Of a stretch of 64,000 bases of DNA, positions 12,027 through 21,962 are shown piece after piece. Positions within the stretch are counted from its first letter, which is position 1. Each line of letters starts with the position of its first letter. The DNA is from Bacteroidota bacterium (GTDB lineage: Bacteria; Bacteroidota; Bacteroidia; NS11-12g; UBA955), in contig JAEUUL010000022.1 in assembly GCA_016787485.1 (NCBI GenBank), positions 177,887 through 241,886 of the forward strand, read 5' to 3'. The position numbers and the translations under genes were made by a program. The notes below the pieces were generated by a model that saw only the letters and a program-made list of their open reading frames with translations, made no database searches and was not told the origin of the DNA.

Positions 12027-13118
12027 TCAAGCAGGTTTCCCAAGTGACTTCAGCATGCGGGCATGCGCCCGGATGGCCGTTGAGAAATACCTGTAGCTGT
12101 TATACGGCACACCGTATTTCTCTGCAGCATCTTTTACCAAAACAGACAGCGCCGGATAGTGTACATGGCATACATGGGGAAACAAGTGATGCTCCACCTG
12201 AAAATTCAGCCCCCCGACAAACCAGGTAAACCATTTGCCACACATGGCATAATTGGCACTGGTATGCATTTCATGCACCAGCCAGTGGCTTTCCATCCGG
12301 TTGCCCTTGTCCGGCAGCGGATAATTGCACAGCGGCACAATATGCGAACACAAAAAAACCAGGGAAAGAAAAAAACCCGTGATACACTGCATAAGTAAAA
12401 AGCCTGCAACAACCCACCACCAGGGTGCAGAAATGCAAACCATGGGAATAATCAGCAGGCACAGCGCATACACACATTTCCATCCGAGCAATTCTGCCCA
12501 CAACCGGGCATAATGTTTACCCTGATCCGGCAGCATTCCCGTTTTCCTGTAATGCCGCAGCCGCACAAAATCTGTTACAAGAAACCATACCACCGTTTGC
12601 AGCGGATACAGAAACCAAGCATAAAATTGCTGATACCGGTGGTGCGGAAGCCAGGGTTGATGCGGTGAAAATCGCAGCAGCTTGCCCCCGTGCAGACTGT
12701 CGTCGTGCCCTTCAATATTGGTATAGGTATGGTGCAGGATGTTGTGCTGAATTTTCCAGTTTAACTGGTCCACGCCCAGCAGGCAAATGATTTTTCCCAT
12801 CCAGTGGTTTTGCCGGTTTTCCCTTGCCAAGGCGCCATGATTGGCATCATGCATAATGCCTGCACCAACCCCGGTCATACCCGCTGCCATTATCACCCAC
12901 AAGCAGAGGAAAGACAAAAGCCCCGTATATAGTTCCCCCAGGATAAAAAAATACGGGATTGCATACAAACCCAACATCACCACCAGCTTGATTTTCATCC
13001 CGGTATTGGCCTGTTTGTGTATGCTCTGCTCTGTAAAATAGGCCTCTGCCCCGGACCTGAGCACTCGGGCAAATTCCGTGTGGTCCTGGTGATTGAACCG
13101 AACATGATGTGTCGTCAT
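12027..13118 (-). CDS. Front-end-type fatty acid desaturase
   Basis: A 363-residue membrane di-iron desaturase, the last gene of the lipid operon. The histidine boxes are HDANH (90-94), QHNILHH (124-130) and QVEHH (307-311). The glutamine in the third box (QxxHH) is the hallmark of front-end (delta-5/delta-6-like) and related acyl-lipid desaturases. There is no cytochrome b5 domain, as is usual for bacterial members. About four to six hydrophobic segments lie between the boxes. It overlaps the preceding desaturase gene by 4 bp (13115-13118). The acyl substrate and double-bond position are not predictable from this alone. Confidence 0.9.
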   Translation of the reverse strand: MTTHHVRFNHQDHTEFARVLRSGAEAYFTEQSIHKQANTGMKIKLVVMLGLYAIPYFFILGELYTGLLSFLCLWVIMAAGMTGVGAGIMHDANHGALARENRQNHWMGKIICLLGVDQLNWKIQHNILHHTYTNIEGHDDSLHGGKLLRFSPHQPWLPHHRYQQFYAWFLYPLQTVVWFLVTDFVRLRHYRKTGMLPDQGKHYARLWAELLGWKCVYALCLLIIPMVCISAPWWWVVAGFLLMQCITGFFLSLVFLCSHIVPLCNYPLPDKGNRMESHWLVHEMHTSANYAMCGKWFTWFVGGLNFQVEHHLFPHVCHVHYPALSVLVKDAAEKYGVPYNSYRYFSTAIRAHARMLKSLGKPA

Positions 13119-14095
13119 TCTGAGCTATGTTCCTGGGATTGCACTTTGCCAATCTGCATGGAAGAGGTACGGAAAACAAATTCCATCCCACTCAGGCTTT
13201 TGGCGTCTTTCAGGTAATGAAAAAAGGGCACTGTATTCGGCATGGGCTCCTGAACCCGGTGCAGATGATACGCAGGGATTCCGGGCCAGGCATGGTGCTT
13301 TTCATGGAGGTGAAAATTGAAATACAGCCAGCGTCCCATCAATGTATTCAACTTCACACTTCGGGTATATTTCACCTGGTCTGCAAACCTAAGGGGTTGC
13401 ACCTCCCGGCTGCCCGCCAGGGGAATTTCAATGTGCGAATGCTGACTGAGAATAAATAAATCACTCAGCATCAGGCTGAGCAGGTACCCCATCCCCAGAT
13501 GCCCCCAGATCCAGTGACCCCAAAAAATAAAAATCAGCACGGTAACAATTGTCTGAAATACCATATTGCGGTAAATCACCGGCATCTGCCTGGCCGGGAT
13601 ATGATTTTTCATCTTCTTCAGATTCCAGTAGTTGCCAAGCCGGTAACCCACCGTAAAAAGCGGAATCCAGAATAACCAGGAAACGTTTACCACAAAACGC
13701 AGCACAATACCAAACTGCGGATTTACCGTACCTTCCGTGGTAGGGTCTTTATCCCGATATCCGGTCCATTTGTGGTGCAGGTTGTGAATGGCCACCCAAC
13801 TGGCAAATGGGATCAGGGAAATAAAAGCGAAAAGGTGCCCGAATAACGGATTGAGCCAGCGGGTGCGGAAATAAGTCAGGTGACCGCACTCATGCAACAG
13901 AATAAAACATTGAAAAAAGAAAACAGCCAGTAGCACTTGTGCTAACCACCAGTGCAAACCCCATATCTGTGCAAAGGACAGATATATACCAGAACCGGCT
14001 AACACCGCAGGAAGCAGCAATCCCAAAAATGCAGGGTAATTGTCTGCCCTGAATTTCCAGACCGCCGTGTGATTTTCAACTGACTTGTTTTTCAT
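13115..14095 (-). CDS. Fatty acid desaturase family protein
   Basis: A 326-residue membrane di-iron enzyme with three histidine boxes, HECGH (68-72), HNLHH (104-108) and HEKHH near residue 262. The boxes are of the HxxHH type, unlike the QxxHH partner that follows. The family includes acyl desaturases and also carotenoid hydroxylases and ketolases, so the substrate could be an acyl chain or an isoprenoid. It overlaps the acyltransferase gene by 20 bp and the next desaturase gene by 4 bp, so all three should be made together. Confidence 0.85.
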   Translation of the reverse strand: MKNKSVENHTAVWKFRADNYPAFLGLLLPAVLAGSGIYLSFAQIWGLHWWLAQVLLAVFFFQCFILLHECGHLTYFRTRWLNPLFGHLFAFISLIPFASWVAIHNLHHKWTGYRDKDPTTEGTVNPQFGIVLRFVVNVSWLFWIPLFTVGYRLGNYWNLKKMKNHIPARQMPVIYRNMVFQTIVTVLIFIFWGHWIWGHLGMGYLLSLMLSDLFILSQHSHIEIPLAGSREVQPLRFADQVKYTRSVKLNTLMGRWLYFNFHLHEKHHAWPGIPAYHLHRVQEPMPNTVPFFHYLKDAKSLSGMEFVFRTSSMQIGKVQSQEHSSE

Positions 14096-14822
14096 TCAAT
14101 GCATTGAATTTACGCACATACAGCTCCCTTACCGAATCCTTATGTGCATCCAGGTGCTCCAGAGTCCAGCCCCGTGTATCCACCGAATCCAGTTTAAATA
14201 CCTGAATTTTTCCCCGTGCAAACGGTTTGTATTTACTAAAAGGATTGCTCTCTTCGGGGATATGGATATACAGCGGATCAATGACCATATCACAAACCAG
14301 GGCCATATGGTACACCCCACGGTTGAAGCGGTCAATGCCATGGTGATGGTCATGTACACCCTCTGAAGAACCGGCAATGTTCACCTGCCGGTTTTTAATC
14401 CGTTTTTCCATTTTTTTAAAAAACCACAGTCTGCGTTGTGGGCGGAATTGCTGCGGAATATAATACACCCCAATGGCAATGGCAGACAATGTGAAAGGAA
14501 TAATGCGAATGGTTTTTTCTGATAAAAGAAACCGTGTATTGGGCATGCTGAGTGCCGTCAGCGCAAAAATATCCAGATAGGAATTGTGGTTGAAAGTGAT
14601 AAAATGAAGGCGGTCATCAGACGGCTTCCAGTCTGGCAATTCCAGCTGCATCCCGATCATTTTCAACGTAACGCGCGACGACCAGGAAATCAGATATTTC
14701 TGATTGAAAGGAATGAGTGTACCAAAGGACAAAATCCTCAGCAGGGCCCCGGCCAATCCCGTGATAGACATGAGTGTGAACACACAAATCAACAGTCCGA
14801 TATTGCTCATTTTACCCGGCAT
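14076..14822 (-). CDS. PlsC-like 1-acyl-glycerol-phosphate acyltransferase
   Basis: A 248-residue membrane-associated acyltransferase. The NHx4D catalytic motif is N78-H79...D84 (FNHNSYLD), and the second conserved block is an unusual EGVHDHHHG (154-162) in place of the common EGTRS. An N-terminal hydrophobic helix (about 8-30) should anchor it. Such enzymes move an acyl chain from acyl-CoA or acyl-ACP to a glycerol-phosphate or a related lipid hydroxyl or amine. The odd histidine-rich motif suggests a non-standard acceptor. It overlaps the methyltransferase gene by 16 bp. Confidence 0.82.
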   Translation of the reverse strand: MPGKMSNIGLLICVFTLMSITGLAGALLRILSFGTLIPFNQKYLISWSSRVTLKMIGMQLELPDWKPSDDRLHFITFNHNSYLDIFALTALSMPNTRFLLSEKTIRIIPFTLSAIAIGVYYIPQQFRPQRRLWFFKKMEKRIKNRQVNIAGSSEGVHDHHHGIDRFNRGVYHMALVCDMVIDPLYIHIPEESNPFSKYKPFARGKIQVFKLDSVDTRGWTLEHLDAHKDSVRELYVRKFNALNEKQVS

Positions 14823-15796
14823 ACCACAGTTTGCATGGAAAGATTGAGAACTTTATGAAACCACAAAACGGGGGTGAGCAGAAATTGACCCAGAAAATAG
14901 GGAAATATAATCCGGTTGAGATTTAAACCCTTGCCAAACAATTTGAAATACGTTCCTGTAAAAATATAAAAATACGGAGGAAATGCGCCCCAGGGTAAAT
15001 ATTCCACCACTTCAAACCCATGTTTTTCCATCATGGCCAGAAACGATTTTTTGCTGTAAAGCACCGTGTGCTGTGGTGCCTGCACCCCCGGCCATTTGCG
15101 GCCAAACAGCCGAAAGGTTAGTGAATCAAGCCGGGGCACCTCAATTACCAGCAGCCCGTCCTTTTTCATCACCCTGCGCGCCATTTCCAGGCTCCGGTTC
15201 GGGTCGTAATCATGTTCCAGAAAATGCCACATGGTTACCAGATCACAGGAATTTTCAGGTATGGGCTGCTCATAAAAAAGACCTTCATAAAAGCGGATCC
15301 GGTCAAATCCGGGATAGGACAGTCCGTCCTTAAAATCCACACCGGAAATGGCACAGTTATATTTATCCTGCATATGCAGTAAAAATGTACCCACGGCACA
15401 TCCCACGTCCAGCAATCGGGTATCAGGTCCGGGCTGCAGATACCTGCGGATCAGCTTGTCTTTATCCCGGTCGTGCTTGCTCATGGCCCATTCATACAAG
15501 GGTGTTAAAATACCCCAGTCCTTTTTCTTGCGGTGTGCAATGTACTCCGAGTCATAAAATTCCTTTATCTGATCCAGGGGAAGGCGTGGATTCTGATACA
15601 CCATTCCGCAGGAAACACATTGCACATAAAGGAAATTTCCCTCTTTTCCGGTCAGGTCATCCTCACCTGTGAGAAAATAGCTGCAGGCCTTTTCACCGCA
15701 GTAGTAGCAGCTCACCTCCTCAAAACGGAAACGAGCAGGATTCTCTAATTTCCCCATTTCTTCCAGGGGATGTATTGCAGTTTTTTTCATAGCCAT
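14807..15796 (-). CDS. SAM-dependent methyltransferase with N-terminal zinc ribbon
   Basis: A 329-residue class I methyltransferase. Residues 30-63 hold a four-cysteine zinc-ribbon-like module (CYYC at 30-33, CVSC at 60-63). The SAM-binding motif I is LLDVGCAVGTFLL at about 138-150, followed by VTMWHFLEHDYDP. A hydrophobic C-terminal stretch (about 275-320) suggests membrane contact. This architecture is common in methyltransferases of sugar, antigen and lipid pathways. It overlaps both neighbours (UbiA-like by 10 bp, PlsC-like by 16 bp). The methyl acceptor is unknown; a lipid or isoprenoid quinone-like intermediate fits the operon. Confidence 0.85.
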   Translation of the reverse strand: MAMKKTAIHPLEEMGKLENPARFRFEEVSCYYCGEKACSYFLTGEDDLTGKEGNFLYVQCVSCGMVYQNPRLPLDQIKEFYDSEYIAHRKKKDWGILTPLYEWAMSKHDRDKDKLIRRYLQPGPDTRLLDVGCAVGTFLLHMQDKYNCAISGVDFKDGLSYPGFDRIRFYEGLFYEQPIPENSCDLVTMWHFLEHDYDPNRSLEMARRVMKKDGLLVIEVPRLDSLTFRLFGRKWPGVQAPQHTVLYSKKSFLAMMEKHGFEVVEYLPWGAFPPYFYIFTGTYFKLFGKGLNLNRIIFPYFLGQFLLTPVLWFHKVLNLSMQTVVCRVK

Positions 15797-16494
15797 ATTT
15801 TAACTCCCAAGACCCACAAAAGCATCATATATTCAAAGTATTTCACACCCGTAAAATACAACAGGGCAATGCCTGCTCCCAGGGGTAAATAATAGATTGC
15901 ATGAGAAGGATCTCCCGCCACCTGAAGCCCTGTAATACCGGCCAGACAGAGCCATCCCCACGCTTTTCCCAATGGAAATGCAGGGTCCTCTGCAATTTCA
16001 TAAAATACAAATGCCAGAAAAATCAGAAGGGCATGCGGTGTAAATGAATGTTCCAGCCAAATGATAAAAAATGGATATTTCAGCAGTGCCAAAACCGGCA
16101 TACCTGGGGGCCATATTTTGCCCAACAAGTACAACACTTCATTGATCAGAATAAATACCGCATAACCAGCCCAGAATAATTTTCCGGTCACAAAACAAAA
16201 CACGAATACAGCAAGGTGCAGGATATATACAAATGCATACAGTTTCTTCCGCCCATGTGCATGCGTGTAGTCCCTGTCCGGCTTGCCGGTATCCTTTTCA
16301 GAACTGCTGAGATCATCAAAAAGCCGCAGGGCCAGCAGTGCAACCCAGAGAACAATGCAGAGATACAGCCAGTCCACCTGCCAGCTGCCTGTTTTCACTA
16401 GCGGAGCAAAGGCAAACAACAGGATATAGACCGGAAGCAGCCAGAAAATGATTCCGCTGTAGCGCTGCCTGAAATATGTAATGATATTATTCAT
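15787..16494 (-). CDS. UbiA-like membrane protein (putative prenyltransferase homologue)
   Basis: A 235-residue polytopic membrane protein with about seven hydrophobic helices. After the second helix it has RLFDDLSSSEKD (57-68), which resembles the first aspartate-rich motif of the UbiA prenyltransferase family. A possible second acidic site is EIAEDPAF further on, but it is weak. UbiA enzymes move a prenyl chain from a diphosphate donor to an aromatic, a glycerol-phosphate or another acceptor. The operon also encodes an HMG-CoA reductase and a CarS-like protein, which supports an isoprenoid role. Similarity was judged by eye only; it could be an unrelated membrane protein. Confidence 0.5.
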   Translation of the reverse strand: MNNIITYFRQRYSGIIFWLLPVYILLFAFAPLVKTGSWQVDWLYLCIVLWVALLALRLFDDLSSSEKDTGKPDRDYTHAHGRKKLYAFVYILHLAVFVFCFVTGKLFWAGYAVFILINEVLYLLGKIWPPGMPVLALLKYPFFIIWLEHSFTPHALLIFLAFVFYEIAEDPAFPLGKAWGWLCLAGITGLQVAGDPSHAIYYLPLGAGIALLYFTGVKYFEYMMLLWVLGVKIWL

Positions 16495-18934
16495 CCAGCA
16501 GGGTTATCACACCCGTATTAGCATCCAGTTCAATGCGTGCGCCGTGCGGTATGCGGTCTGCGGCAGACTCCACCCCAACAATGGCCGGGATACCAAACTC
16601 ACGCGATACAATGGCACCGTGAGAAAGCATGCCACCCCGTTCCACCACCAGTCCGCTGATGAGGGGAAAAACCACCACCCAGCCGGGATCCGTTTGCCGG
16701 GTAATCAGTATATCTCCCTGCAACAGTTTATCTGCTTCCATTACACTGTTCAGCACCCTGGCCCTGCCCTGTACCTTACCCCCGCACACAGGCAATCCTG
16801 TCCACCTGCCCGGTGACGAGGCCTTTTCATCCGTAACCGGCAGAATTACATCGGCTGCAGCAGGGTATGATCCCAGCCTCGTGGCAAAATCATCGGGGTA
16901 GCGGTTGTTCCCTTCGCGTTCGTGTTCTTCACGGCGTTGTTTTATCAACTGTTCAAATTGACCGGGCAGCATATATGAGCCTGACAGCCATTCCGCCACT
17001 TCCTGGTACCGCAGGTAAAAAATATCATCCGGCTCCCTGAGCAACCCGTTTTGCGTCCATACATGCCCCAGCCGCAGCAGCACACGACGGAAAGCGAAAT
17101 AGACCTTGGCCTGTTTCAGCCGGGCCCTTTCACGGGCAGATATCCCCTTGCCTGCCAGGTGAATAAGCCGGTTGAGTATAAAAACAGAAATACCAGCCTT
17201 GAAAATATTCACCGGATGCTTCCGGAAAATCCGTTTCCGGAATTCAGAAATCACTGATTGGCGTTCCTGAAAACGCCGTGCAATCAATTCCTCCGGGTCC
17301 GACTCCGGCAGGGCCAGATACTGCTGCATAAGGGCAATAAACAATTCGGGTTTTTCACAATAATTGGTTACGGTCAGCATCAACTCCCCGGAACAGCGGA
17401 AGCCCCATTGATCTATGTAATTCTGTATGCTTTGCAGAATATTCCTGTGCGAACTGACCTGCAGCCAGGTCCAGAAAGCTTCAGGCTGCATTCCCTGCAA
17501 TTTCTGTTTCACTTCCTGTTGTGCCTCAATTTGCTTTCTTATCCGGTACATGTGAATGATGGGTTCGCTGCTCACCAGACCGGGAATGGCCTGAATGAGC
17601 CGGTTGTGCACCCCCTCGCTGTCCTGCGCATAATAGAGGCTGCAGAATTTGCCCAGGGCTCCGTGGTACAACATGGCAAAAAAATCAGCCAGTGAGGCTT
17701 TGTACCAGCTATGAAACCGGATCTCCAGAAATCCGTGATAACAAGCCTGCAATTCCGAAATGGAAAATGCGTGGTCCACTCTTTGAGCATAGGCATCCAC
17801 ACGCATTTCAAAATCTTCCACATTCCGGTTCAGATTCCGTGTATAATGGATTACCCGGCGAACGAATCGGATTTTATTCCCTGCGGAAGGCGTTGCGGTA
17901 TCCGTTTTCGGTGCGGTATAACCCACAAAATGATCAAAGGATTTACGCAGATTTTTTGCAAACGGGGATGCTGAAATGACTTCGTGAATGCTGCTCACGT
18001 TGTAATACATGCGCGCACCCCAGGCTCCGATAATATTGATAAGAGCCGGTTCTAGTGTGCGGATTCTATCATCCGGAATACAAAACAACCGGGCCAGATT
18101 TTTAAAATAATGATAATACGAATCCCTTGCTATGGAATAAAGAATCGGGGTCAGTGGCTCAGGATAATTTTCATTTACATTGGTATTGCTCCAGTATTGC
18201 AGGGGCCCATAGGCTATGCTTGTAACCGGCCGACACTGAACCAGCCAGCATACACCGTTCTTTACGGCAAATTCCATATCCACTGCCGTTTGATAATCCA
18301 CTTCCAGTTCTATTGCAGAACGCAGTAATTCTTCAAGCTGAAAAGGAATAGTTGCCGGCTCTTTTTCATCCCAGTTGCCTGCTGCACGTTCCGGATTCAC
18401 GGCGCCGGATACCAGTTTTTCCCCATGCCCTTCCACGTATTCCAAAAGCCATTGCCGGTCGTTTTCCGGATTCCGGGAAAAGAAAACCCCGGCATATTCC
18501 GGTTCAATCAATGCCTGCACCAACACTGCCATTTGCTGCAACTGCTGATTGCGGGTACCGGAATATATTTTTACATTTTCTTTATCCGAAGAGGCCCAGC
18601 ATTTCTGAATATGCTGCACTATTTCCTGCGGGTTGTTGCTGCAAATAAACGAATCCAGCTGACCCGCAAAGGATGATTCCCTGCCATCCTCGCCCACTGC
18701 AGAACTCCGCACCATGTATTTATCCGCACCGGTTTTGTGCAAAGCTTTTTCCACTGCGTGAAAAAATTCTTTTCCCGGTTCTTTTTTGGCCAGATAATAT
18801 TCCGTGTAAGCCGAAGATGGAATAACAAAACCGGGAGGCACCGGAAGTCCTTTGCGTAGCAGGTAACTCACGCTGGCCGCTTTTCCACCTGCCTGTGCTT
18901 CGCTGAGAGGTTCCGTTAGAAAATAAATCTGCAT
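16487..18934 (-). CDS. PEP synthase / rifampin phosphotransferase-like dikinase
   Basis: An 815-residue multidomain phosphotransferase. The N-terminal ATP-grasp domain (about 1-240) has GGKAASVSYLL, VRSSAVGEDGRESSFAGQ (75-92) and a closing LVQCRPVT. The C-terminal swivelling domain carries the phosphorylatable histidine H772 in GGMLSHGAIVSRE. The middle part lacks the TIM-barrel PEP-binding domain expected of a true PEP synthase and instead begins YWSNTNVNENYPEPLTP, as in rifampin-phosphotransferase-type enzymes, which transfer the beta-phosphate of ATP to an alcohol. In this operon it may phosphorylate an isoprenoid or lipid alcohol; that is inference. It overlaps the CarS-like gene by 1 bp and the UbiA-like gene by 8 bp. 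Confidence 0.83.
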   Translation of the reverse strand: MQIYFLTEPLSEAQAGGKAASVSYLLRKGLPVPPGFVIPSSAYTEYYLAKKEPGKEFFHAVEKALHKTGADKYMVRSSAVGEDGRESSFAGQLDSFICSNNPQEIVQHIQKCWASSDKENVKIYSGTRNQQLQQMAVLVQALIEPEYAGVFFSRNPENDRQWLLEYVEGHGEKLVSGAVNPERAAGNWDEKEPATIPFQLEELLRSAIELEVDYQTAVDMEFAVKNGVCWLVQCRPVTSIAYGPLQYWSNTNVNENYPEPLTPILYSIARDSYYHYFKNLARLFCIPDDRIRTLEPALINIIGAWGARMYYNVSSIHEVISASPFAKNLRKSFDHFVGYTAPKTDTATPSAGNKIRFVRRVIHYTRNLNRNVEDFEMRVDAYAQRVDHAFSISELQACYHGFLEIRFHSWYKASLADFFAMLYHGALGKFCSLYYAQDSEGVHNRLIQAIPGLVSSEPIIHMYRIRKQIEAQQEVKQKLQGMQPEAFWTWLQVSSHRNILQSIQNYIDQWGFRCSGELMLTVTNYCEKPELFIALMQQYLALPESDPEELIARRFQERQSVISEFRKRIFRKHPVNIFKAGISVFILNRLIHLAGKGISARERARLKQAKVYFAFRRVLLRLGHVWTQNGLLREPDDIFYLRYQEVAEWLSGSYMLPGQFEQLIKQRREEHEREGNNRYPDDFATRLGSYPAAADVILPVTDEKASSPGRWTGLPVCGGKVQGRARVLNSVMEADKLLQGDILITRQTDPGWVVVFPLISGLVVERGGMLSHGAIVSREFGIPAIVGVESAADRIPHGARIELDANTGVITLLDE

Positions 18935-19449
18935 CAGAAGGATGATTTAATATGCAACCAAACCAGCAACGCTGAAAATAAAATGTGCAAACCCACCCCG
19001 CATAAAAAAATGATCAGCATGTCTGCCAAACTTCCAGTGCCGAGCCAAAAATACATTAACGCCACTCCCAGTGCGGAATCGGATTTATCCATCAGTGCAA
19101 AAAGCAAACGGTATTTTTCCGGACTTCCGCCGGAGGGAATTCCCATCCTGCGTTTAAACCAGCTGTTGGGCAATTCAGCAGCCGCATAAGCCAGCCCCAG
19201 CAATAATCCCGTAAGCCAGTCTTCCGTTGCGCCCCAATTCAACCAACGATTGAAGAGCACAAGAAAAGCCCCGTTGACCAAGGAAATAAACAATACACCG
19301 CGCCATGTTTTGTTTTTTCCAAACCATGCTGTGTGAATGGGTAAAGCGAGAAAAGACAGCCCGTTTCTTTTCACCAGCACCATGTGCAGGATATTGGTAC
19401 AGGTAAGCGGCACCAGTACAATTAAAATATGATTAATCAGCGGGCTCAT
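18934..19449 (-). CDS. CDP-archaeol synthase (CarS)-like membrane protein
   Basis: A 171-residue membrane protein with about five helices. It shows the CarS/DUF46 pattern: FGKNKTWRG (43-51), a short ELPNSWFKRRMGIP block (92-105) and LMDKSDSALGV (119-129). In archaea this family uses CTP to activate digeranylgeranylglycerol phosphate as CDP-archaeol; bacterial relatives exist with unknown substrates. It belongs to the same broad CTP-transferase fold as CdsA and phytol/dolichol kinases, so a CTP-dependent kinase is an alternative. It overlaps the HMG-CoA reductase gene by 17 bp. Confidence 0.7.
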   Translation of the reverse strand: MSPLINHILIVLVPLTCTNILHMVLVKRNGLSFLALPIHTAWFGKNKTWRGVLFISLVNGAFLVLFNRWLNWGATEDWLTGLLLGLAYAAAELPNSWFKRRMGIPSGGSPEKYRLLFALMDKSDSALGVALMYFWLGTGSLADMLIIFLCGVGLHILFSALLVWLHIKSSF

Positions 19450-21751
19450 CTTCCAGGTATTTCAGCATTTGCAGTGCATTGGTCAGTATGCGGGCAGAAA
19501 AGTCATACCTGACCAGAATGCCCGCCACTTCATAAAAGGAAAAACGGGTGAGAATACATACTTTCAGTGCATACCGCATGGCTTTGATCCACTCTTTCCA
19601 GGAGGTGTCGGGATACAGGGAATAATGAAATTTCACATAATCCATCAACTGCGATTGGGTAAAATCATCGGGCAGCACAAAGGCAAGAAATTCCGCAATA
19701 TCCCGGTGCGGCAAATCTTTTACGGCCAGTTCCCAATCATAAATCACGGGAATTTTGCTGCTGCGAATCACAATATTCCGTGGATTAAAATCATTGTGCA
19801 CCACAACGCGTTCCAGGGCAATGGCCTGTGCCTCCTGCTTAAGACCAGGCAGTGCGCCCTGCAATTCCTGCAACTGTGTTTTCAGGTTTTCCGGCGCCCT
19901 TTCCCCGATTAAAATCTGCATGAGTTTTTCGTACAGCGGCAACGCATTCCAGGGCTCAAACAGGGGAATTTCCTGCAATTCCTGCTGCAACGGATTCCGG
20001 TGAAAATTTGTAATGGCGCAGATGGTGTTTTTTATGTCCGTTTCATGCCACAATTCCGGTGCATTCTCACTCCGTGCAATGTGCATGGCATCCATGTCCA
20101 GAAACTCCTGCACAAACAGATAGATCTCTCTTTCGGGTTGTTCCATAAATCCCGCCAGCACAGGAATATTTTCATATCCGGCCCGGGAGAGTATATGATA
20201 AATATGTGCTTCCTTCCAGTGGCTTCCGGTGTATTCCAGGCTGGCCCTGGCTGCCCTGATGCGGTCAGACAATTCCGGATCGATGGAAGCCGCCATCACG
20301 TGCAGCCCTTTAATCACTTCATCATCCGTGGCTTTGGATTTCAGCAGAAGTTTTCGCTGCCTGCCATCCATACCGGTAATTTCCAGGGGTACAAAGCCGA
20401 TGAGTTTTTTGCTGATGCGCGAAGCAATATGGGTCAGGATGCCATTGTCCAGCAGGTCATGGTCCAACACCCTCACAGACCGTATTTCTTCCGCAGGAAT
20501 TTGTTGCAGGGTGCGCTGCAGAAATTCAGGTGTGAGTTCCGACCGGAGCAACCAGTTGACCGGCTTATTCCTTCCCAGTTTTTCGTGTGCCTTGGCAAAT
20601 TCACCGCTTACGATGGCTGAATAGGTTGACAATTCAAGTCCCAGCGCAAAACCTGCAATCAGGGAAGCCAGCCGTTCCACTTTGCCGGTTCCGCGGCATT
20701 GCATAATCTCCAGGGCTTCCGCCTGCCGGGACAACTGGGTTCCTCCGCCCACGGTACCAATGACCAGATTGGGCAGATTCAGGGTTGCTGTCATTCCGTC
20801 TGCGGTTTCTTCCAGTTGCAGAAAGCCTATAGATGACTCATGGATGCAGGCCAGGTCTTGTCCGGTAGCCGCAAAAATGGCGGCCACGGCATTTGCCACA
20901 TTAATATTGTAGCCCACCATTCCATGTTTTGCGGCCAGCTCCTGCGACGGATACAGGCAGCGCAGCAAGGCTGCGGAATTTGTGCGCAGTACCTGGTGCA
21001 GCACTGCATCGGACAATGTGCAGGTGGCCGTGACATTTACCCCCCTGCCGTGCTGAATGTTGTACTGTGATATTTTCTTATCCGCCGAACCATTGCCTTC
21101 AATGACAAAATCCAGCGGAACGATCCCTGTTGCCTGCTGAAATACCTTTGCCAGGTGCAGCATGGCATGCCAGGTGCAGGTGGTGGTCATATTCTGCCCG
21201 GAGGCATCCCCTGTGGTATACACAAAATTGAGGTGCACCGCCATACCGGTTTGTATGCCACTGATTTCCTGCAGCCGGGCGTGGTTTGAGTAGGCACTTG
21301 TGATGCGCCTCAATTCATCGGTGCGGCGCAGGGCGAATTTGAGAAAAACGGCAGCATCGGCTTCGGAGTCGAACAAAAACATGGGCACCCGGTTCATGCG
21401 TTGCCATTTCACACTGGCAGTGAAGCCTCCGCATAGACTGATGGCCTTTGCCCCGCGGTTCATGGAGCCAATCAGGGCTCCTTCCAGGGTTGCGGCCACG
21501 CCATGCACCCATTCTCTTTGGCCATTCTGCACAAAGAGCAGGGGCCCGATTAGCCCCAGGGGCAGTTCCACACCACCCACAAAAGATTCTATGTTGTTCT
21601 TTACCTCGTCAGGAGAAAGGCCGGTGGCCGCCAACCGCGCATGCGGCAGTTGTTGCTGCTGCATATACCCCAGCCGCAGCTCCAGGGCGGAACGGGTTAC
21701 CAGTCCCCTGCCCGGCACAATCGGAAATTCGGGCTTGTCCTCTGTCTCCAT
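19433..21751 (-). CDS. HMG-CoA reductase (class I) fused to an APH-type kinase
   Basis: A two-domain protein of about 772 residues (numbering below counts the GTG at 21754 as 1; the ATG at 21751 is the likelier start). Residues 1-405 are a soluble HMG-CoA reductase, which makes mevalonate. All four catalytic residues are present: E91 (ATLEGAL), K226 (ADKK), D300 (ATGQD) and H390 (AKAHEK), together with TGDASGQN (181-188) and IGTVGGGT (332-339). Residues about 425-773 form an aminoglycoside-phosphotransferase/choline-kinase-like domain with HNDFNPRN (653-660) and IYDWE (671-675), the catalytic and metal-binding motifs. An HMGR-kinase fusion is unusual. The kinase might act on mevalonate or a downstream alcohol, which is inference. 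It is the first gene of the lipid operon; no convincing promoter was found in 21755-21962. Confidence 0.88.
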   Translation of the reverse strand: METEDKPEFPIVPGRGLVTRSALELRLGYMQQQQLPHARLAATGLSPDEVKNNIESFVGGVELPLGLIGPLLFVQNGQREWVHGVAATLEGALIGSMNRGAKAISLCGGFTASVKWQRMNRVPMFLFDSEADAAVFLKFALRRTDELRRITSAYSNHARLQEISGIQTGMAVHLNFVYTTGDASGQNMTTTCTWHAMLHLAKVFQQATGIVPLDFVIEGNGSADKKISQYNIQHGRGVNVTATCTLSDAVLHQVLRTNSAALLRCLYPSQELAAKHGMVGYNINVANAVAAIFAATGQDLACIHESSIGFLQLEETADGMTATLNLPNLVIGTVGGGTQLSRQAEALEIMQCRGTGKVERLASLIAGFALGLELSTYSAIVSGEFAKAHEKLGRNKPVNWLLRSELTPEFLQRTLQQIPAEEIRSVRVLDHDLLDNGILTHIASRISKKLIGFVPLEITGMDGRQRKLLLKSKATDDEVIKGLHVMAASIDPELSDRIRAARASLEYTGSHWKEAHIYHILSRAGYENIPVLAGFMEQPEREIYLFVQEFLDMDAMHIARSENAPELWHETDIKNTICAITNFHRNPLQQELQEIPLFEPWNALPLYEKLMQILIGERAPENLKTQLQELQGALPGLKQEAQAIALERVVVHNDFNPRNIVIRSSKIPVIYDWELAVKDLPHRDIAEFLAFVLPDDFTQSQLMDYVKFHYSLYPDTSWKEWIKAMRYALKVCILTRFSFYEVAGILVRYDFSARILTNALQMLKYLEDEPAD

Positions 21752-21962
21752 CACTTGCCTTTTGCCTTTGATTCCGGCAAGATAAGAACAATTATGAATA
21801 TTAGAAATTCAAAGGGGTATCCCTATCCTCTCCCTCCAGATTGAAAATGATAATTCACATAAATCCATTTAAAACCATCATCGGAATAGGTATTATTCCG
21901 GTTTTTGCCTTACCCTGTCACCAATAAGAAGTACAGTACATTATTTCGTAACAGCAGGGCCC

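Follow-up and report, generated by a model that had tools for sequence, protein, structure and literature searches.

A run of overlapping genes in a 64,000-nucleotide stretch of a Bacteroidota genome (contig JAEUUL010000022.1; hereafter the window) is tentatively interpreted here, with confidence a little short of even, as an operon that moves horizontally and directs the synthesis of an accessory membrane lipid, built from an alcohol phosphate made by a fused HMG-CoA reductase–kinase protein (HMGR–APH). This reading is based on gene content, linkage, predicted folds and conserved residues, from which we infer the substrates, step order and product. HMG-CoA reductase (HMGR) belongs to the family targeted by cholesterol drugs and, to our knowledge, is known for one reaction, mevalonate formation. 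The locus appears to be a lipid operon whose unusual part is an HMGR variant, and the cluster seems undescribed, as an initial sequence-based account (the preliminary description) had supposed; the literature searched held no description of the gene combination, a weak negative as only open-licence papers were covered.

The operon comprises eight open reading frames on the minus strand, and their coordinates and all seven successive overlaps (17, 1, 8, 10, 16, 20 and 4 bp) agree exactly with the preliminary description. HMGR–APH (19433..21754, 773 aa, GTG start) joins a class I-type HMG-CoA-reductase domain (Pfam HMG-CoA_red, 286.6 bits, residues 34–395) to an APH/choline-kinase-fold kinase (Pfam APH, 44.9 bits, residues 514–708). 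There follow a CarS-like integral membrane protein (18934..19449, 171 aa), a PEP-synthase/rifampin-phosphotransferase-like dikinase with an ATP-grasp and a phosphohistidine domain (PEPS; 16487..18934, 815 aa), a strongly diverged membrane transferase with a predicted UbiA fold (15787..16494, 235 aa), a SAM-dependent methyltransferase with an N-terminal Cys-rich segment (MT; 14807..15796, 329 aa) and a PlsC-like acyltransferase (14076..14822, 248 aa). Two FA_desaturase-family enzymes complete the set: the membrane enzyme Des1 (13115..14095, 326 aa), which is conserved and closes the core operon, and desaturase 2 (12027..13118, 363 aa), which is accessory to the window genome's copy.

Gene maps revealed an identical HMGR–CarS–PEPS–UbiA–MT–PlsC–Des1 order in five genomes: that of the window, L035 (Flavobacteriales), L036, L083 (a Flavobacterium metagenome-assembled genome, MAG) and L088 (a MAG labelled Pseudobdellovibrio, Bdellovibrionota, for which a binning error is possible). 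A search for gene order and co-occurrence, as the preliminary description had proposed, thus uncovered conserved linkage; of the eight-gene unit put forward there, seven genes were retained in order but the second desaturase (12027–13118) was absent from the other copies, so that the conserved unit is one of seven genes. The L039 copy has the same order without PlsC, and the L058 copy is partial. Junctions recur as well, with overlaps of 1 bp for CarS/PEPS and, in four of five copies each, 8 bp for PEPS/UbiA and 16 bp for MT/PlsC; with order and junction overlaps both recurring across genomes, the core arrangement is far beyond chance. Divergence of the partner genes tracked that of HMGR (Spearman 0.96 for PEPS, 0.91 for CarS, 0.85 for PlsC, 0.75 for UbiA, 0.69 for Des1 and 0.47 for MT), which argues that the core travels as a unit.

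HMGR–APH relatives, collected by searching 295 genomes from the class with the fused protein and by scanning 84,980 species genomes, formed one coherent fusion family and a single clade (SH-aLRT 100). Its carriers include cultured genera (Kordia, whose version consists of HMGR–APH, CarS, a CDP-transferase and GtrA) and a Streptomyces plasmid. Loci of the window's operon type, here called type A, were found in seven genomes including the window's own, and are rare: a seven-row profile of the UbiA-like protein matched the window's own gene alone among 395 genomes of the phylum, and a single-sequence search of 147 genomes found one relative besides the window's own. Type A copies are scattered in the fusion clade, early branches L039 and L036 included, as expected if the operon is old or has been transferred.

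The reductase domain retains its catalytic residues: E559, K691, D767 and H866 (human numbering) were present in all 52 fused proteins, and the CoA-side Arg568 is intact in the operon HMGR. K735 was present in none of the 52 (P in 39, T in 5, S in 4 and other residues in 4), nor was there a conserved Lys or Arg at neighbouring positions in these proteins; S684 was replaced by Glu in 51 and Asp in one, and H752 by Asn in all. In a plant HMGR structure, the Lys735 equivalent forms a salt bridge with the terminal HMG carboxylate (PMC9500038). S684 and K735 were both kept in human, plant, archaeal and two Streptomyces mevalonate-cluster HMGRs in the same alignment, the canonical controls being PDB chains and HMGRs from Streptomyces plasmids with annotated mevalonate clusters; non-fused Bacteroidota class I HMGRs were rejected as controls because they lack K735 and lie mostly in another UbiA/PEPS operon. 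K735 loss is therefore not unique to the fusion, as single-domain Bacteroidota class I homologues and homologues from Vibrio, Alteromonas and a Sinorhizobium plasmid lack it too. These last are plasmid-borne (L125, Alteromonas; L126, Sinorhizobium; L127, Vibrio); acyl-CoA carboxylase genes surround the Sinorhizobium gene, and that of Alteromonas has a siderophore receptor nearby.

The operon protein thus resembles class I HMGRs (human HMGCR, Methanothermococcus 6hr7 and those of the Streptomyces mevalonate clusters) in fold, catalytic residues and Arg568, but differs from them in the three substituted positions and in its fusion to an APH kinase. Because the catalytic residues are kept while Lys735 and Ser684, both of which touch the region around the HMG carboxylate, are lost, it probably acts on a thioester other than HMG-CoA, with the reaction type kept, the substrate changed and a product other than mevalonate. 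The role in making mevalonate assigned to it in the preliminary description is hence disfavoured, although the remodelled pocket could still hold HMG-CoA through other contacts, and loss of Lys735 is no proof of a different substrate.

Unlike class I HMGR systems, the operon sits in a genome with its own separate class II HMGR. Of the two HMGR genes in the window's genome, the other lies on contig C22 (L041) in an operon whose further products look like GHMP kinases, a diphosphomevalonate decarboxylase and a type 2 IPP isomerase; this second HMGR aligns over its full length with class II structures, best with 7n7s (563 bits). The preliminary description had asked for a full MEP or mevalonate pathway elsewhere in the genome; the latter is present as a complete operon, which indicates that the eight-gene operon does not supply ordinary isoprenoids. 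Beside this canonical operon is a gene for a 299-aa protein (L041:733-1632) that is UbiA-type prenyltransferase-like by eye.

In the kinase half of HMGR–APH, the motifs HND....N and DWE were invariant in an 18-sequence alignment, and profile matches in the PDB were weak, with aminoglycoside phosphotransferases and choline kinase among them. Across 50 distinct fusion loci, recurring neighbours were CarS (25 loci), PEPS (23), a CDP-alcohol phosphotransferase (18) and NTP_transf_5 (13), and a desaturase of either family was found in 17. No fusion locus combined CarS (25 loci) with thymidylate-kinase-like (TMK-like)/NTP_transf_5 genes (14 loci), a pattern that partly follows clades in a count that ignores kinship. 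The step after HMGR–APH would thus fall to CarS or to TMK-like enzymes in different relatives, which fits a further activation of the alcohol phosphate. Type B loci had no UbiA, PlsC or desaturase genes nearby. The smallest version seen (L055, L056 and L081; Schleiferiaceae, UBA7430) has a single desaturase gene directly overlapping HMGR–APH, and in the Dokdonia/Aquimarina loci L078 and L089 a same-strand run of PEPS, NTP_transf_5 and two TMK-like kinases ends with HMGR–APH in a soluble-looking context. On a plasmid of Streptomyces sp. NBC_01435 (L123:13209-18121; an unannotated record), genes for GH3 (an acyl-activating-type enzyme), HMGR–APH and a TMK-like kinase lie in a row, with a type I PKS and genes for sulfate activation close by; the kinase is a homologue of the Bacteroidota one.

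Other HMGR loci carry recurring UbiA–PEPS pairs, and a CDP-alcohol phosphotransferase adjoining CarS. A second, commoner Bacteroidota operon (L092–L106), found in about 13 of 295 genomes, starts from a single-domain HMGR without K735, after which come UbiA, PEPS, DUF3419 (BtaA-like), a membrane protein judged by eye to be phytol/dolichol kinase-like, a GNAT-like protein and an OleC-like acyl ligase; some copies also have CdsA-like and CDP-alcohol phosphotransferase genes.

The preliminary description had called two of the membrane proteins CarS- and UbiA-like, calls that predicted folds bear out, although direct Pfam and NCBIfam hits were absent (UbiA) or below the cut-off (CarS). The CarS-like protein had no Pfam match and reached 28.1 bits (1.6e-6) against the NCBIfam model for CDP-archaeol-type synthases (PRK04032), under its 148-bit cut-off. 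Its AF2 model (pLDDT 91) was matched by Foldseek best to the CDP-archaeol synthase 5guf, the sole match at probability 1.00 (TM 0.64/0.69, but E 0.23). It shares with 5guf the predicted fold and the pattern of KTxRG and DxxDS motifs, NKT.R...ELPNS..KR...D..DS-type motifs being invariant in 24 sequences; its identity to CarS, in contrast, is only about 20%. Its probable role is to activate a lipid phosphate in a CTP-dependent manner.

The UbiA-like protein had no significant match by sequence in Pfam (PF01040 included) or NCBIfam, and is the least conserved in the operon (20–32% identity among operon copies). Its AF2 model (pLDDT 83), from an alignment that included the UbiA-family relatives encoded beside PEPS in other HMGR loci, gave weak E-values in plain Foldseek. 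With VIA, its top six matches all belonged to the UbiA superfamily, among them the DGGGP synthase 7bpu (Z 14.0, 230 residues, 4.4 Å), the PRTase 8j8j (13.7) and a UbiA homologue (12.7), while other folds scored 10.2 or below. A UbiA-family protein encoded beside PEPS in L104 does pass the Pfam cut-off (44.3 versus 34.2 bits), and the profile of this PEPS-adjacent family from other HMGR loci has a DGGGP synthase as its best PDB match by sequence; hhalign placed the window's family against it with E 2.7e-5 and probability 74 over 67 columns around the first Asp motif. The invariant residues (R57, D60, D61, D68, E166 and D170) include Asp/Glu in both motifs, as in the DGGGP synthases 7bpu and 6m31 and the decaprenylphosphoryl-phosphoribose synthase 8j8j, which the predicted fold resembles over its full length, but they spell a non-standard R..DD......D in place of NDxxDxxxD.

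PEPS matched PPDK_N and PEP-utilizers only, with no C-terminal PEP/pyruvate-binding barrel (PEP-utilizers_C) found by Pfam, and its best PDB matches by sequence were 5hv2/5fbs. It shares its order of ATP-grasp and phosphohistidine domains with rifampin phosphotransferase, the prodigiosin ligase PigC and PEP synthase-like dikinases, and the histidine of its catalytic motif GGMLSHGAIVSRE was kept in all full-length homologues aligned. It differs from those dikinases in the unmatched barrel, in its lipid-type gene neighbours and in forming a subfamily of its own (best NCBIfam NF004881, below cut-off). Representatives of the different context types had NF004881 or NF004882 as best NCBIfam match and were only 21–28% identical between types, so independent recruitment is possible. 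MT (Pfam Methyltransf_23, 8.7e-22) is the best conserved operon protein, with 66–73% identity to other copies, and its orthologue was confined to operon-bearing genomes (4 of 295), the next best matches having 30–32% identity. The PlsC-like protein scored 24.4 bits against Pfam Acyltransferase, just above the cut-off of 23, and was conserved in five of the six operon copies that reach its position. Des1 and desaturase 2 matched Pfam FA_desaturase (101.5 and 120.6 bits, respectively) and neither had a match in a PDB sequence search; Des1 homologues also lie directly upstream of HMGR–APH in L035, L055, L056 and L081, and among the fetched loci those of desaturase 2 were found in L089 only.

Several other explanations could account for parts of this picture. 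HMGR–APH might supply a small phosphorylated alcohol as the polar head group of an ordinary phospholipid, with CarS producing the CDP-lipid donor, to which a CDP-alcohol phosphotransferase of PgsA-like type would couple it. The CDP-alcohol phosphotransferase genes in the 18 fusion loci have PgsA/archaetidylinositol-phosphate-synthase affinity and usually lie right behind CarS, the APH domain has its weak choline-kinase affinity, and a substrate of polar or cationic nature would go well with Glu in place of Ser684. We nevertheless consider this explanation unlikely: the window operon has no such phosphotransferase, the genome's single one being on another contig, and UbiA, PlsC and the desaturases are left unexplained. 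An extra supply of mevalonate, phosphorylated by the kinase to phosphomevalonate with the remaining genes decorating isoprenoids, would fit the intact catalytic residues and Arg568 and the archaeal-type folds of UbiA and CarS. It is made decidedly improbable by the complete mevalonate operon elsewhere, by the loss of K735 and S684 in every fused protein and by the fusion clusters examined, which showed no later mevalonate-pathway gene.

Plants recycle phytol to phytyl diphosphate, and on this model HMGR–APH and a second kinase could convert an unsaturated acyl-CoA to an allylic alkyl diphosphate, which UbiA would transfer to an acceptor to give a decorated quinone, pigment or ether lipid. HMGR-like genes do occur beside acid-activating enzymes (the OleC-like ligase, and GH3 in Streptomyces), kinases (APH and TMK-like) and UbiA. 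We regard such a route as quite unlikely, however, because the fusion has a UbiA-type neighbour in no more than about 11 of 50 loci, the operon holds no aromatic or quinone-building gene and no second kinase was identified in type A. Least credible, and very improbable in our estimate, is an archaeal-type ether-lipid pathway of the typical kind that has been suggested in the FCB group, the acyl enzymes then being there by chance. The CarS fold and the best fold match of the UbiA-like protein, DGGGP synthase, speak for it, as does a gene for PcrB (GGGP-synthase family) on the window's contig, about 117 kb before the window start (G000:C41:60398-61057; L115), and in three of the six other type A genomes. 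This hypothesis was rejected because PcrB is not consistently present: although found in four of seven type A genomes, it is not linked to UbiA and CarS, and two of the three genomes that lack it are 95–99% complete. PlsC and a desaturase are, moreover, part of the conserved core. In comparison with the FCB-group ether-lipid genes (PMC7852524), the likeness lies in bacteria having archaeal-type lipid enzymes, and the operon differs in its HMGR–kinase fusion, its PlsC and desaturases and its want of a linked GGGP synthase.

In the accessory-lipid reading that we favour, the HMGR domain would carry out an NADPH-dependent four-electron reduction of a non-HMG acyl-CoA thioester to a primary alcohol, which the fused APH kinase would phosphorylate. 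CTP-dependent activation of a lipid phosphate by the CarS-like enzyme would come next; the UbiA-fold enzyme would transfer a group linked to a lipid phosphate, isoprenoid or otherwise, PlsC would attach an acyl chain that the desaturase or desaturases would unsaturate, and the dikinase-like protein and methyltransferase would finish a polar lipid. We count in its favour the seven-gene order, the covarying divergences, the retained catalytic residues, the loss of K735, the separate mevalonate operon, the UbiA and CarS folds, the recurring partners, the mutual exclusion of CarS and TMK-like/NTP_transf_5 genes and the GH3 and TMK-like neighbours of the Streptomyces fusion. Against it are the small HMGR acyl pocket, not obviously suited to a long chain, the poor conservation and non-standard Asp motif of the UbiA-like protein and the type B loci without UbiA, PlsC and desaturases. 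Type A genomes also carry only one or two CDP-alcohol phosphotransferases each, which leaves the fate of a CDP-lipid in doubt, and a phosphotransferase dedicated to the type A operon was rejected on this count. The polar lipid may perhaps be an isoprenoid–acyl hybrid. A fuller scheme, in which the HMGR-family reductase and kinase make a new alcohol-phosphate block and UbiA/CarS and PlsC/desaturase assemble an isoprenoid–acyl lipid on a non-glycerol backbone, is a speculation to which we give rather low probability.

If the accessory-lipid reading is true, the clade of HMGR–kinase fusions would amount to a new branch of acyl-CoA reductases, and its operons would point to a membrane lipid, or some lipid-soluble metabolite, not yet recognised. 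The cluster also opens to bench tests the way a single bacterium combines isoprenoid with acyl lipid enzymes.
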